Assembly (NCBI RefSeq): GCF_014839805.1
Contig: NC_051121.1
Span: forward strand, 7,237,116 to 7,301,115
Length of the DNA stretch: 64,000 nt
Reading direction: 5' to 3'
From: Manduca sexta
Lineage: Eukaryota > Arthropoda > Insecta > Lepidoptera > Sphingidae
The notes below the pieces were generated by a model. That model was not told the DNA's origin, searched no databases, and worked only from the letters and a program-made list of their open reading frames with translations. The first letter of the stretch is position 1. Each line of letters starts with the position of its first letter. Made by a program: the position numbers and the translations under genes. Positions 4,006 to 63,044 of the stretch are shown one piece after another.

Positions 4006-4199
4006 CTCTTTTTGAGTTGCGTGAGGTTGTGTATGTCGGCGCGCAGGTCGGCGAGGCGCGTGTGCTGCGCGCGCAGGTCGAGCGCCAGGTCGAGCGACGT
4101 GCGCGGCGCGCGCGCCCGCCCGCCCCCGCGCCGCGCGCCCCGCCCGCGCCCGCGCCCGCGCCCGCCGCGCCCGCCGCGCCCGACCACACGCGGCCCCAT
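4006..4199 (-). CDS. kibra: kibra exon 17: TSLDLALDL helix, with an apparent frame break in its GC tract
   Basis: The 3' half reads RTSLDLALDLRAQHTRLADL and then RADIHNLTQLKK, matching the family RTSLDLELDLQ...EISVLKELK helix. This frame is open from the ATG at 4,199, but exon 16 ends in phase 2, so the correct entry frame is A-TGG-GGC. That frame reads WGRVWSGAAGAAG, agreeing with the expected R-W/M-x-R after RRSLR, but later runs out of the TSLDL frame. One base appears to be missing in the (GCGGGC)-rich tract at about 4,100-4,185, or two are extra. Other explanations: an assembly error in extreme GC sequence, a real indel allele, or an unseen tiny exon (none found at 4,200-4,612). Acceptor TTGCGCAG, donor GTAAAT. 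Confidence 0.88.
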
Positions 4200-8845: not shown

Positions 8846-9020
8846 CAGGCAGTCAGGTCCTGCGGCGAGGTTGACTTGCAGCGTGGCGGCGCGCAGGGCC
8901 TTGCCGGTGAGCGGCACGTGGTGGTTGTGGCGCAGCGCCAGCGCTCCGCCGCGCCACACGCGCCCCGCGCCGCGCCACGCCGCCCCACCGCCACCCACCA
9001 GCAGACCGCCCACTACCGAC
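8846..9020 (-). CDS. kibra: kibra exon 11: middle of C2 domain, Gly-rich
   Basis: The exon encodes SVVGGLLVGGGGAAWRGAGR, VWRGGALALRHNHHVPLTGK and ALRAATLQVNLAAGPDCL. In the family this stretch covers the strands NIRVAVLPC through FWVSMSYSALHQKTLRVDV. The strand pattern LALRHNHHVPLTGKALRAATLQV fits, but the loop that normally holds the CLFRTRPL segment is a Gly/Ala/Arg-rich low-complexity run. GC content is very high (roughly 75-80%). The acceptor is GCGTCCTACAG and the donor GTAAAC; the exon ends in phase 0. Confidence 0.9.
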
Positions 9021-9380
9021 CTGTAGGACGCATACGAGGTAAGTTACAGTTGCTATCGATAATAGGGATGGAACGTATTTCACTAATACTAATTTTGAGA
9101 TAAGTTTTATAAAAGTTGTATTAAGTATTAAGTAATTAATAGAAGAAAAAATATTTAGAATTACTTGGGGAACTAAGCTAGTCCTGCATGAGCAGAATAA
9201 TATTTAAAGCATGCAGGTCGATAATGTTTGTAAGTAAGAATGTCCTTGTCTGAGTACAATTTTATAAGTTTTTATATGGAACCCCTGGGTAATTTTATGT
9301 TTCCAAGATATTTTGATTTAAAGATGTATCAAAAAATAAATTAATAAAAATCGTCTAAAAGACATTAAAATTATACTCAC
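9021..9380 (-). other. kibra intron 10
   Basis: AT-rich intron inside the C2 domain; nothing else seen. Confidence 0.85.
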
Positions 9381-9498
9381 ACTTCAGTACCGATATCGAT
9401 GAATAGCGCGTGCAAGTTGCGCGCGCGCAGGATGCCGATCTCCAGCTCGCCCTCCTCCGAACAGTAGCGCAATTTGATCTCAATTTGGGCACTGTTCA
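9381..9498 (-). CDS. kibra: kibra exon 10: first part of C2 domain
   Basis: The exon encodes NSAQIEIKLRYCSEEGELEI and then GILRARNLHALFIDIGTE. This is the opening of the C2 domain (human ATRIQIALKYDEKNKQFAILIIQLSNLSAL). The alternating hydrophobic residues in IEIKLRY and LEIGILRARNL are the first beta strands. The C2 domain of Kibra binds phosphoinositide membranes. Most of the acidic Ca2+ ligands of canonical C2 domains are not evident in this part. The acceptor is TTTGTTGCAG and the donor GTGAGT; the exon ends two bases into Val. Confidence 0.95.
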
Positions 9499-10027
9499 CT
9501 GCAACAAACATCACCAAATAAATAATCATACTATTATCATATTTTATGAAATAAAGATGACATAAGCACACACTAGTAACTAGAAATCAATGTCATTAAA
9601 AAAGTTTAAACCATGTGTTTCAATTTTCGACTTCGAATTCGACTTCCGAATGTCTATCTTACACAATAAAGCTTAAAATCCTTTATGAAAAAGTAACCCC
9701 CTTATTCATAGACATATTAACCAATCACAACGGCCCTATGTCTACGCACTGCAAAGGCTGCCATGCCGTCAGCACTGAGAAACAGACTTGTTATCACAAC
9801 TTTACTCCGTCCTTAGATAAAAACGTCTATGAATAAGGGGGTATCTATCAGTGGCGAAGGGTTAAATTTCTCAAAAGTTAATCCGGTGCAAAAAAAATTT
9901 AGTTAACATATCACAACCAATTTAACAGAAAATTAAATCTAAGACAAACGTAAATAAACCTAAAAGGTAAGCCGGTAGGGTTGTGTAGAAGCCTCACCGC
10001 TGGTATGTATAGCTAGTGTATATTTAC
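9499..10027 (-). other. kibra intron 9
   Basis: This intron carries the 145-bp MITE at 9,697-9,841. The remainder is AT-rich and featureless. Confidence 0.8.
9697..9841. mobile_element. short MITE with CCCCCTTATTCATAGAC terminal repeats
   Basis: This 145-bp element is bounded by perfect 17-bp inverted repeats CCCCCTTATTCATAGAC. Flanks are TAA on the left and TAT on the right, compatible with, but not proof of, a 3-bp PIF/Harbinger-like target. It sits in the kibra intron between exons 9 and 10, about 190 bp from the nearest exon edge. From memory, similar 'TATTCATAGAC' elements are common in lepidopteran genomes. Confidence 0.65.
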
Positions 10028-10132
10028 CCGCGTTGGAGGGGTCGCTGGCCGCCTGCGCCGCCTCGAACACCCCCGAGTCTCCCGCCACCGACTCGTCGCT
10101 CACTGCCGCCGACACTGATCTAGTGTTCGTTC
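10028..10132 (-). CDS. kibra: kibra exon 9: conserved VSAAVSDESVAGDSGV block
   Basis: The exon encodes TNTRSVSAAVSDESVAGDSG followed by VFEAAQAASDPSNA. VSAAVSDESVAGDSGVFEA is nearly identical to the human KIBRA block just before the C2 domain, so identity is very secure. Two leading bases complete Gly from exon 8; the last base (G) joins TG of exon 10 to make Val. The donor is GTAAAT. The acceptor TTTGATGCAG is embedded in the first unit of a 63-bp minisatellite that fills the upstream intron sequence, and every unit carries a nearly identical acceptor-like sequence. Shifting the junction to another unit would add multiples of about 60 nt. Confidence 0.95.
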
Positions 10133-10134
10133 CT

Positions 10135-10870
10135 GCATCAAATATAACATAATCCTAAGGACGAATTGGTAGTATCCCACAGGCTAATAGGTCTGCATCA
10201 AATGACATAACATATAAGTAAGGCCGAATTGGTAGTATCCCACAGGCTAATAGGTCTGCATCAAATATAACATAATCCTAAGGACGAATTGGTAGTATCC
10301 CACAGGCTAATAGGTTTGCATCAAATGACATAACACATGAGTAAGGACCAATTGATAGTATCCCACAGGCTAATAGGTCTGCATTAAATGACATAACACA
10401 TGAGTAAGGACGAATTGGTCGTATCCCACAGGCTAATAGGTCTGCATTAAATGACATAACATATGAGTAAGGACGAATTGGTCGTATCCCACAGGCTAAT
10501 AGGTCTGCATTAAATGACATAACACATGAGTAAGGACGAATTGGTCGTATCCCACAGGCTAATAGGTCTGCATTAAATGACATAACATATGAGTAAGGAC
10601 GAATTGGTCGTATCCCACAGGCTAATAGGTCTGCATTAAATGACATAACACATGAGTAAGGACGAATTGGTCGTATCCCACAGGCTAATAGGTCTGCATC
10701 AAATGACATAACACATGAGTAAGGACGAATTGGTCGTATCCCACAGGCTAATAGGTCTGCATCAAATGACATAACACATGAGTAAGGACGAATTGGTAGT
10801 ATCCCACAGGCTAGGTCTGCATCAAATAGATCATAATACGTAAGGACGAATTGGTAATGTCTCATAGGTC
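10135..10870. repeat. 63-bp minisatellite, about 12 units, containing the exon 9 splice acceptor
   Basis: Twelve copies of a core GGACGAATTGGTCGTATCCC...AGGCTAATAGGTCTGCATTAAATGACATAACACATGAGTAA occur, with period 63 bp (about 60 bp in units 1 and 3). The centre units are nearly identical and the edge units diverged, as expected from unequal exchange. On the minus strand each unit boundary reads TTTGATGCAG or TTTAATGCAG. The unit nearest kibra exon 9 supplies that exon's actual acceptor (AG at 10,134-10,133). Because 63 is divisible by 3, the array has a long open frame, which explains the 195-codon ORF; it is not a gene on its own. Confidence 0.93.
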
Positions 10871-10924
10871 CTAGTTATGTAAAATGTGAGTGTGATATAT
10901 ACCACTAACCTATTTAGTTTTAAT

Positions 10925-10990
10925 ATTAATATTAGCCCTGTATTATATACTGTCCCACTGTTGCACACGGGCCTCCTCTACTACAGAGAC
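10925..10990. mobile_element. short LINE-type fragment
   Basis: CTGTCCCACTGTTGCACACG and GGCCTCCTCTACTACAGAGA resemble the widespread lepidopteran 'GTCCCACTGCTGGGCA.GGGCCTCCTCT' repeat (from memory). About 65 bp remain, next to the 63-bp minisatellite. Confidence 0.5.
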
Positions 10991-11224
10991 CTATTTAGTA
11001 TGTAAGAAAAAATAGAATAAACTATGTTCTTAATATAAATAAAAATATACTTTATTTATCACGTAGGCGAACAACGTTGCACTTATGATACGTCAAAACA
11101 ATTATTAGAATAATTATTAATATTTCTCAATAACACTTAAAATCACTCATTTAACTAGACATTTTAAATTGGAGATAAAATTCTTAAGGAATACAAGGCA
11201 TAAGGTAAGACAAAGTAGCCAGCT

Positions 11225-11475
11225 CGGGTTGGCTGGTAGGGGGAAATAAAAGAATAATTACTGTTCCAGGTTATTGCGCAACATAAAGCCACCACCGGAG
11301 TCCGGAAGTAAATTAACAGTAAATCAAATCAAGGTGGCTAGGTGGAGTGACGATCTGCTAAAAGTCGCTGGTAAGAACTGGTTGCGACAGGCCGAAGACA
11401 GGGTAAAATGGCACATATTGGAGGAGGCCTATGCCCAGCAGTGGACAAAGATATAGGCTGATGATGATGATGAAA
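11225..11475 (+). mobile_element. 5'-truncated LINE tail (RTE-like non-LTR retrotransposon)
   Basis: The open stretch reads RWSDDLLKVAGKNWLRQA, then EDRVKWHILEEAYAQQWTKI and stop, followed by GATGATGATGATGA. This is the characteristic C-terminus of LINE reverse-transcriptase polyproteins in Lepidoptera (RWTDDL.KVAG..W...A.DR..W..LEEAY.QQW), with the usual microsatellite tail. Only the last 60 or so codons remain, so the insertion is dead on arrival. It lies in the intron between kibra exons 8 and 9, antisense to the gene. Confidence 0.82.
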
Positions 11476-11510
11476 TCAAATCAAATGATGTAATGCATAA
11501 GGCTACTGAC

Positions 11511-11612
11511 CACTAGACGAGGGAGTCCGGGGCGAAAGCGGCGGCGGGGGCGTCTCCGAGATCGGGGACAGCGGCTCGCACGGCCGGCCCGGGCCTTGCA
11601 GCTGCACTGGAA
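11511..11612 (-). CDS. kibra: kibra exon 8: Pro-rich linker with SPISE motif
   Basis: The exon encodes PVQLQGPGRPCEPLSPISE followed by TPPPPLSPRTPSSS. Two leading bases finish Ile (ATT) from exon 7 and the last base begins Gly. It is a disordered, proline-rich linker with several SP/TP sites, which could be targets of proline-directed kinases such as CDK1 (inference from site type). The acceptor is TTATCCGCAG and the donor GTCAGT. GC content is far higher than in exon 7, only about 600 bp away. Confidence 0.86.
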
Positions 11613-11767
11613 CTGCGGATAAGGAAAACCCCTTAGTATATTGCTGGTAACTCTTACAATATATGATGATAAAAAGAACGTTATTTATAATTCCAAATAA
11701 AAGAAATGGCAAATCTTTACCTATTTAAAAAAAATATTATTCCAAATTCAAATTAATGACATTTGAC

Positions 11768-12129
11768 TTAAGGTGGTAGCTCAAGGTCCATTTTCATACA
11801 TTTTGTTTCGGCTTTAATCTGGGTAACTAAACAAGTATTGGCAAGTAAAGAATTTAAATTCACGTCTAGTTAGTGATTAGTTCTCGCAGTTGAAGAAAAA
11901 CGTAAAATAATTAATAATCATGGATATTTCGGCCTTTAAAATTTAATATGACGAAATTTTAAAGGCAGAAATATCCATGATTATTAATTATTTTACATTT
12001 TCTTCAACTGCGAGAACTAATCACTAACTAGACGTGAATTTAAATTCTTTACTTGCCAATACTTGTTTAGTTACCCAGATTAAAGCCGAAACAAAATGTA
12101 TGAAAATGGACCTTGAGCTACCACCTTAA
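11768..12129. mobile_element. TTAA-flanked palindromic MITE, copy 2 (most complete)
   Basis: This is the same family as the copy at 1.3 kb, with TTAA at 11,768-11,771 and 12,126-12,129 and both arms essentially full length. It is inserted in the intron between kibra exons 7 and 8, ending about 93 bp from the exon 7 donor. The arms pair almost perfectly, so the transcribed intron could form a long RNA hairpin. Confidence 0.88.
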
Positions 12130-23983: not shown

Positions 23984-24290
23984 TTAAGGCGATACCTCAA
24001 GGTCCATTTTCATACATTTTGTTTCACCTTTAATCTGGGTAACTAAACAAGTATTGGCAAGTAAAGAATTTAAATTCACGTCTAGATAGTGATTAGTTCT
24101 CGCAGTTGAAAGAAAAACGTAAAAATAATTAATAATCATGGATATTTCGGCCTTTAAAATTTAATATGACGAAATTTAAAATCACTAACTAGACGTGAAT
24201 TTAAATTCTTTACTTGCCAATACTTGTTTAGTTACCCAGATTAAAGGTGAAACAAAATGTATGAAAATGGACCTTAAGGTATCGCCTTAA
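23984..24290. mobile_element. TTAA-flanked palindromic MITE, copy 3 (diverged ends, deleted right arm)
   Basis: TTAA flanks lie at 23,984-23,987 and 24,287-24,290. The outermost bases are GGCGATACCTCAAGGTCC rather than GGTGGTAGCTCAAGG, matched on both sides (compensating change), so this is a distinct subfamily. The right arm has lost the central segment after GACGAAATTTAAA. It lies within the 30-kb kibra intron. Confidence 0.82.
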
Positions 24291-61000: not shown

Positions 61001-61954
61001 TTAAATATTATATTGTAGTAGACCAAAAATATTAAGATTTATACTTTACGTTTATCTCGATCTGGTTTGAACACTTAAAAATCAATACCAAGTCTGCATA
61101 AAAATTTCCTAGTAATAAAACCGGCAGCATATTTATCGTATTGCGTCACCTACGATCACCAAATTTATCCCCCGAAAGTGGTAATTGGGTGATGGTAGAC
61201 GGTAGGATGACGTCACGTGTTCGATTGACAAACGACATTCCACTGTTGAGAGTCAGATCACGTCAGCCCCAAGGTCTCAGCTCGTCTTGACTTGAAAACT
61301 TCGATAAATAGCGTGGTTTTTATTTTGATAGCACTACGTTAGAAAATTTGTGAATTTTAAAAGATCCTTGAAACTTTTATCATTAAAATAAAAGTTATTG
61401 GAACTGCCGCAGTTACAACTGTAATATGATAACTAATAATTTATGTGCGGTTAAGTATCAATCGATATTTCCTACGCTCTAAGCAGTTATAGGTGGTTGC
61501 GCTAGGCATAACTTGATTTTAAGCCGTGTTCACTCGGTGTTACTCATAATTTAGATTGATTTTTTATTTTCTTTTTCGTTTGTTTTTAATTCTCTAAGAA
61601 TTTACTATTAGTAATGCTAAAGAAATTATTCCATATCTAGCCCTATTTCAAATTCGCCAACAAGTATACCATGGTCAATTCCCTTTACAAATCTGACGTA
61701 TACTCACCTAAAACATCCAAAGTCGCCATTTCATTATCTAATCCAATAATTAAACATACAAATTGAGCGCAATCGACACTCACTTATAATGTTGCACGCG
61801 AGTGACGGACGCACGGACAACGTTGCATAAACACTATGTATAAGGTTTCCGCTTGAATCACGCAGCATGCCAACCGACTTCGTCACGGCGCGTGCGACAC
61901 AATAACATTGACGATCACGACTTCGCTCAATATTCGATAATACGTTATCGTATT

Positions 61955-62268
61955 GTGGTGACAAGCCTCCGGGGGTACGTGCAACTCTTGTGCTGTTTGA
62001 GCCAAAGATTTTAATTGTTCGACTTTTGACTCAATCATCGACTAAGTTCTCAGCCAGTTCATGGCTCATGATAATTGGCAAGACTTTATTAGAGCTAGGT
62101 ACTAGAATAATGTGGTGACAAGCCTCCGGGGGTACGTGCAACTCTTGTGCTGTTTGAGTCAAACTACTTTTCTAATTGTTTGACTTTTGAGTCAATTATC
62201 GACTAAGTTCTCAGCCAGTTCATGGGTCATGATAATTATCAAGGCTTTATTTAAGCTATACACTAGAA
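61955..62268. repeat. 157-bp direct tandem duplication
   Basis: The block beginning GTGGTGACAAGCCTCCGGGG at 61,955 is repeated at 62,112, with matching CAACTCTTGTGCTGTTTGAG, CGACTAAGTTCTCAGCCAGT and CATGATAATT in the same order and spacing. The first about 45 bp are identical; the rest has diverged by substitutions and small indels. It encodes no obvious product. Confidence 0.85.
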
Positions 62269-63044
62269 GAATCTAAAAGGTTATTGTTATTAACATAAAG
62301 TCCTTCACAACACGTAAGCAGTTGCATTTTAACAAGACTCCAGGCTTATAAGTCTTTATAACTGATAATTCGATCAACATTGTATCTAGTACCAATGAAT
62401 ACTCAACTTTAGCCCTCAAATACATTTTATTATCATCTGCGTACTAAATATTCTTTTGTTTGATTCCTGAACCCACCTACGTTTTCAAATTCTCCGTCAC
62501 CGTGTTTCCGACACGTTTTTGCAATTTAATTACCTACCATAAATCAATGTGTAACGGTATAAAAACACGGGAAAATACGTTTATCATTCTAATATTTTGT
62601 GCGTAAATCGTTGGACATGGTAGCCACTGGACACCTGTCTAGACGTAAGCAAATTTAGTGACGTCATCTTTTCTTCTGGTATAAAAATATTTCTTTACCT
62701 AAAGGCAACCAAGAACAGTGCTAACGGAAAAATAATATAATTCTCATGACTTAAAAAATTCTAAAACAACTCATGATAAAAATCATAATATACGCAATGA
62801 AGAATATGTAAACATGTGTAATAACACTAGGGCTATTCCTATTGATATCGAAATAATAGAATTAGAGATACAAAAACAAGAAAAATGATGGTGTTATAAA
62901 ATATAGCAGTCATTTGAATGCATAGAAAAGAAGCGAAAGTAGAAAAAAAAACAGTATTTGTAGTCATAGAAATGTGTGTTGCGTGATACCAATATACGTA
63001 AAGACAAAAATGGCTTAATTTTACTCTCAATAAACACTATTTCG

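Follow-up and report, generated by a model that had tools for sequence, protein, structure and literature searches.

In the kibra gene of the hawkmoth Manduca sexta, the 3′ splice site of a conserved coding exon forms the last member of a minisatellite, and ten of the units upstream of it end in further copies of the same acceptor. This array structure is real and unusual. It is probably a locally grown and largely silent repeat that is passed over by exon definition. Positions given below are those of the window, i.e. the whole 64,000-nt stretch of DNA that was analyzed (7237116-7301115 of contig C7 in the assembly), and the features of the locus are collected in Table 1.

Table 1. Features of the kibra array and the surrounding exons and intron.
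Feature	Position	Strand	Description	Basis
Preceding exon	11511..11612	-	102 nt, phase 1 on both sides; skipped in M. sexta model P0014	
Intron ending in the array	10133..11510	-	1378 nt	
High-copy dispersed element	11030..11258	.	SINE-like (our own label); same intron, upstream of the array	
Minisatellite	10133..10870	-	12 units, 738 nt, at the 3′ end of the intron	TRF and unit cutting
U1	10817..10870	-	Diverged unit at the upstream edge, 54 nt	Unit cutting
U9	10316..10378	-	Acceptor AG changed to AA (GCAA); ends TTTGATGCAA	Unit cutting
U10	10256..10315	-	60 nt, identical to U12 throughout; carries the decoy acceptor at 10256	Unit comparison
U12	10133..10192	-	Terminal unit, 60 nt; bears the authentic acceptor TTTGATGCAG|GAACG	P0001 and P0014; identical to U10
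Ten decoy AGs	10817, 10757, 10694, 10631, 10568, 10505, 10442, 10379, 10256, 10193	-		Unit cutting
Second TAG	10278..10280	-	Same frame, inside U10	
TAG in exon frame	10155..10157	-	Inside U12; its AG (CCTTAG) is the closest one upstream of the authentic AG, at 22 nt	
Coding exon	10028..10132	-	105 nt, phase 1 on both sides; peptide TNTRSVSAAVSDESVAGDSGVFEAAQAASDPSNA; donor CGG|GTAAAT	

The gene in the window was identified as kibra, on the minus strand, in agreement with an earlier note made on this DNA. The minus-strand exons, used as the query, match protein kibra isoform X1 [Manduca sexta] (P0001) with 100% identity over residues 200-560, which also indicates the species. This identity and a predicted WWC1 helical hairpin (PF25802, E 3.3e-54) place the protein in the kibra/WWC family, and the solved C2 structure 2z0u is matched at E 1.5e-06. 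Residues 43-1028 of P0001 were placed in the window as 18 pieces, bar single residues at three junctions; residues 1-42 lie outside the mapped pieces. The array-adjoining exon had been called exon 9, which holds for the ninth mapped piece, but with residues 1-42 unmapped it is at least the 10th coding exon of X1. All 17 introns between the pieces could be placed as GT-AG with the P0001 reading kept, GT and AG being imposed by the placing script. The exons at 11511-11612 (102 nt) and 10028-10132 (105 nt) are two frame-neutral exons side by side; skipping of the latter keeps the frame because the phases on its two sides are equal.

Two further regions of the gene model were noted. A minus-strand segment at 18720-18260 resembles the N-terminus of Spodoptera frugiperda kibra X1 (P0002), a protein that lacks the WW domains, and represents an alternative first exon; compared with P0002 its frame changes twice, through assembly indels or a real change. 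At 4199-4006 (minus strand) the orthologues run on to RTSLDLALDLRAQ in one frame, while the frame of P0001 (WGRVWSG...) differs there. The frame changes somewhere in the GC-rich tandem at 4102-4182, and the C-terminus of the M. sexta model is therefore odd and short.

The acceptor at 10133|10132 is common to both M. sexta models found, P0001 and P0014, as the earlier note had proposed. The exon is joined upstream to 11612-11511 in P0001 and to 12324-12222 in P0014, which has R for G at the exon start, as required by its skip of the preceding exon. An alternative acceptor of the 105-nt exon was also looked for, and neither model uses one. The pattern G[TS]N[TS]RSVSAAVSDESVAGDSGV was matched in 116 of the 120 homologues listed (of 1268 found), in keeping with the conservation claimed earlier for the exon peptide, which is kept in 119 of the same 120. 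Two homologues, P0041 and P0065, have TNTRS and changes further on, and a Leptidea model (P0043) lacks the 105-nt exon with the frame kept. Since TNTRS is encoded directly after the AG, an acceptor further downstream is excluded for ordinary transcripts. The predicted acceptor at 10133 is thus secure, judged by the two models and the 116 homologues; the M. sexta gene models may themselves rest on homology. The skip of the preceding exon in P0014 and that of the 105-nt exon in the Leptidea model suggest that splicing here may be regulated.

Minisatellites consist of head-to-tail units of about 10-100 bp, and the array is one of them. TRF reported 10156-10856 with a period of 63, 11.3 copies and 93% matches. 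Cutting after each TGCAG or TGCAA delimited units of, in order, 54, 60, seven times 63, 60, 63 and 60 nt (U1 to U12). It had been claimed that each of about 12 units ends in an acceptor; this stands for the 11 of 12 that end in TTTGATGCAG or TTTAATGCAG (TTTRATGCAG) and fails for U9, which has lost its AG, so that ten decoys and the authentic site are left. Unit cutting and the splice site of the models agree that the true acceptor is the last array member. The last 60 nt of the intron (10192-10133) recur letter for letter at 10315-10256, i.e. the intron end occurs twice with its AG, 123 nt apart. The match of the acceptor to the array therefore spans a full 60 nt in the assembly and not a few bases only. 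After the AG the units go on with ACCTA and the exon with GAACG, and no exonic base is repeated. As U12 is identical to U10, the bases after the AG are the only difference from the decoy at 10256 when the 60 nt upstream are compared, which upholds the earlier view that the real site is distinguished mainly by what follows it.

The interior of the array is homogenized: U4, U6 and U8 are identical, as are U5 and U7, with which they alternate; U10 equals U12. Ahead of TTTRATGCAG, units of the interior type carry CCTTACTCATRTGTTATGTCA and those of the terminal type CCTTAGGATTATGTTATA. The diverged U1 differs from the terminal type by an edit distance of 4 and from the interior types by 6-7, and shuffles of its core came as close to the terminal type in 38 of 5000 cases. 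This likeness of U1 and U12 fits an older unit type kept at both edges of a homogenized interior. The identical internal units fit past slippage or unequal exchange, which makes array-length polymorphism between individuals no more than plausible.

Splice-site strength was scored with an acceptor matrix trained on the other 16 acceptors of kibra. Leave-one-out scores of the 17 real acceptors range from -8.11 to 11.5, and the array acceptor (5.26) ranks eleventh of 17. The intronic part of the authentic site scores 6.34 bits, and those of the decoys 5.54 (one), 6.18 (five), 6.34 (one) and 7.47 (three); four of the ten are thus at or above the authentic value, and bootstrapping resolved no difference. 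By intronic sequence the decoys cannot be told from the real site with this 16-site matrix. Of the 2136 intronic AGs of kibra that lie outside the array, 63 score 6.34 or more, the nearest lying 183 nt from any acceptor. When exonic positions +1 to +3 were added, all ten decoys scored above the real site, with bootstrap fractions of 0.57-0.76, a difference that 16 sites do not resolve. A branch motif (YTNAY, 10-60 nt upstream) is absent for the authentic AG and for its copy at 10256, whereas five of the six decoys examined have one with no intervening AG. An AG-free YTNAY occurs in 12 of the 17 kibra introns, the array intron being among the five without. With a branch motif at most of the decoys examined and none at the authentic AG, the decoys could be used appreciably. 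The intron offers no reason to favour the last AG and some reason to favour others.

Donor strength was scored likewise. The best GT of the array reaches -0.44, below every real donor; leave-one-out scores of the 17 real kibra donors are 0.67-9.53, and that at 10028 scores 7.97. Three GTs within the 105-nt exon score 3.04-4.53, above some real donors, so donor pairing is less clear-cut than the array scan suggests. Measured from the donor at 10028, use of the decoys at 10193, 10256 and 10817 would lengthen the exon from 105 to 165, 228 and 789 nt, respectively. The first exonic bases differ between the real site and the decoys (GAACGAACAC vs ACCTATTAGC), and it is possible that they contain an enhancer. 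Masking of the decoys by RNA structure is not claimed, since 99 of 100 shuffles of 10330-10010 fold at least as well as the real sequence (z +2.15). No Rfam family matched 9000-12000 at gathering score.

Each of the ten TGCAG decoys keeps the phase of the exon and reads into an in-frame TAG. Reading from 10193 and 10256 takes 12 and 33 codons, respectively, to arrive at the TAG at 10157-10155, and reading from the decoys at 10379 to 10817 takes 33 to 179 codons to the TAG at 10280-10278. It is possible that the TAG is an evolved guard. A protein-coding function of the array was considered and rejected: a 198-aa ORF is open in the exon frame, yet a given frame is also open in 32% of shuffled units, no Pfam family matched and a homologue was not found, so the open frame was taken as chance.

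Exon definition disfavours long choices without a donor. We propose that the array began with an in situ duplication of the last part of the intron, up to and including the splice AG, and that slippage or unequal exchange then enlarged it to 12 units, each new one carrying along its copy of TTTRATGCAG. Strong purifying selection on the exon would have kept the founding acceptor beside it. The last acceptor, followed by conserved coding sequence and paired over 105 nt with a good donor, would be the one recognized, and the array acceptors, having no nearby donor of their own, would be mostly silent. Transcripts that use a decoy would carry the in-frame TAG and be removed, or yield a protein cut short before the C2 region. 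The mode of origin, exon definition, the silence of the decoys and the decay of mis-spliced RNA are what we infer from the anatomy and scores given above.

It is also conceivable, if unlikely, that the array is a regulator, i.e. that the early splicing machinery is contested by the decoys and that the number of copies determines how often the 105-nt exon is included or skipped, or the ratio of stop-bearing to full transcripts. The decoys are as strong as the real acceptor and those examined have better branch motifs; a skip would keep the frame, the phases of the exon being equal, as in the Leptidea model without it. In human TERT, removal of the intron 6 repeat VNTR6-1, about 3.5 kb from the exon, shifts exon inclusion, an effect explained by G-quadruplexes in the text cited (PMC11830802). 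Frequent loss of an exon whose peptide is kept in nearly all listed homologues would, however, be costly, and no predicted protein with an array-coded tail was found at E <= 10 among 7999 scored candidates, which is a weak negative. A stronger version is a long shot: a copy-number rheostat in which the intron is trapped in unproductive complexes by competition among ten acceptors, most of which have better branch motifs than the real site. Allele length would then set the frequency of exon skipping or of stop-bearing transcripts, and through this both Kibra dose and Hippo signalling in hawkmoths. The earlier suggestion that array length tunes splicing or branch-point distance is allowed and unsupported.

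The near copies of the array acceptor are not due to chance. Its 30-nt context has a copy within 2.5 kb that matches at 30/30 positions; the values are 17-19/30 for the other 16 kibra acceptors and 16-20/30 for the best copies of the contexts of the 17 kibra donors. No second locus was found. A DNA search of the 470-Mb assembly, which skips very common words, detected no unit outside the array (five matches, all within it). The junction pattern with up to three mismatches occurred at 40 places assembly-wide; ten were exact, all in the array, and the 30 looser matches elsewhere (2-3 mismatches) showed no excess over the 37 of a reversed control. The best outside match (two mismatches, contig C1383) is 22 nt long and isolated, without any surrounding array. 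As very common words are skipped in the DNA search, the single locus is backed by both searches jointly and by neither alone.

These results bear on an alternative that we regard as improbable, namely that the array arrived as a mobile or satellite repeat whose acceptor-like end took the place of the original intron end. A high-copy dispersed element in the same intron and the coincidence of the array edge with the exon edge would suit such an arrival; against it, unit copies elsewhere in the 470 Mb do not exceed the control level, viral contigs contain no exact match, and an older core is common to U1 and U12. It is very improbable that the true acceptor lies at 10155 (CCTTAG), where an AG stands closer to 10133 than that of any TGCAG decoy, or at 10115 (in-frame TCAG), which would keep the frame, or that the number of copies is wrongly assembled (indels in the assembly are possible, as GC-rich stretches of kibra change frame relative to the orthologues): the intronic part at 10155 scores -2.44 and its use shifts the frame, 10115 would remove the first six residues of the conserved exon peptide, and the units differ in an ordered way, unlike simple stutter.

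Other repeats were observed in the window. The element at 11030-11258 gave 3773 first-look candidates in the assembly, and the 40 scored showed 84-89% identity, bar itself and one short match. An ORF of about 33 aa (LDVNLNSLLANTCLV...) recurs on both strands (1521-1626, 11768-11873, 12024-12129 and 23984-24290) as a dispersed repeat and forms an inverted pair in the kibra intron 12221-11613. The intron following the 105-nt exon contains an inverted repeat (9696-9842; 23-nt arms, 91% complementary, with 101 nt between them) like a small inverted-repeat transposon, and a 161-bp unit forms a two-copy tandem repeat at 61954-62272.

The closest structures described are the mirages of lancelet globin genes, tandem duplications of an intron/exon boundary that seemingly leave regular splicing undisturbed; BflGb6 has two haplotypes with 6 and 3 units, and edge units escape homogenization (PMC3087553). 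Similar repeats are named for lancelet PGBD5, Adh and troponin C, those of PGBD5 being 60 and 108 bp (PMC3902484). As far as these texts describe them, mirages and the kibra array have in common that minisatellite-like repeats multiply splice signals at a coding-gene boundary (in 11 of the 12 kibra units) and that the interior is homogenized with edge units left out. The globin unit spans the boundary, comprising intron end and exon start, whereas the kibra unit ends at the AG and contains no exonic base; the array was therefore not filed as a mirage. They differ also in size, with 3-6 units of 150-160 nt in BflGb6 and 12 of 54-63 nt in kibra, and in that the kibra array belongs to an insect and is known here from DNA and gene models. 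By its units it is a variant of mirages that probably works like them, and not a member.

Minisatellites have been associated with splicing in other genes. That of human IFI6 (6-16) contains several used splice donors (PMC4526556, citing Turri et al. 1995) and, like the kibra array, provides a coding gene with the same splice signal several times over; unlike it, the signals are donors, not acceptors, and are used for isoforms. The C. elegans intronic repeat CeRep25B is linked to splicing (PMC4039745). It resembles the kibra array, as VNTR6-1 does, in being an intronic minisatellite associated with splicing, and both differ from it in that the acceptor itself is not contained, as far as described. 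No insect acceptor inside a minisatellite was seen in the literature searched, which includes few subscription papers and does not prove absence.

The kibra array brings to an insect a kind of structure found described only in lancelets in the literature searched, and it bears on how introns grow and how arrays of splice sites could seed new exons. It is above all useful as a natural experiment in which 3′ splice sites compete. A pair of acceptors 123 nt apart is identical over 60 intronic nucleotides, and only one of them is used in the models; the choice must therefore be set downstream of the AG, further upstream, or by exon definition. If array length is variable, wild moths would provide a graded series in a conserved growth-control gene.
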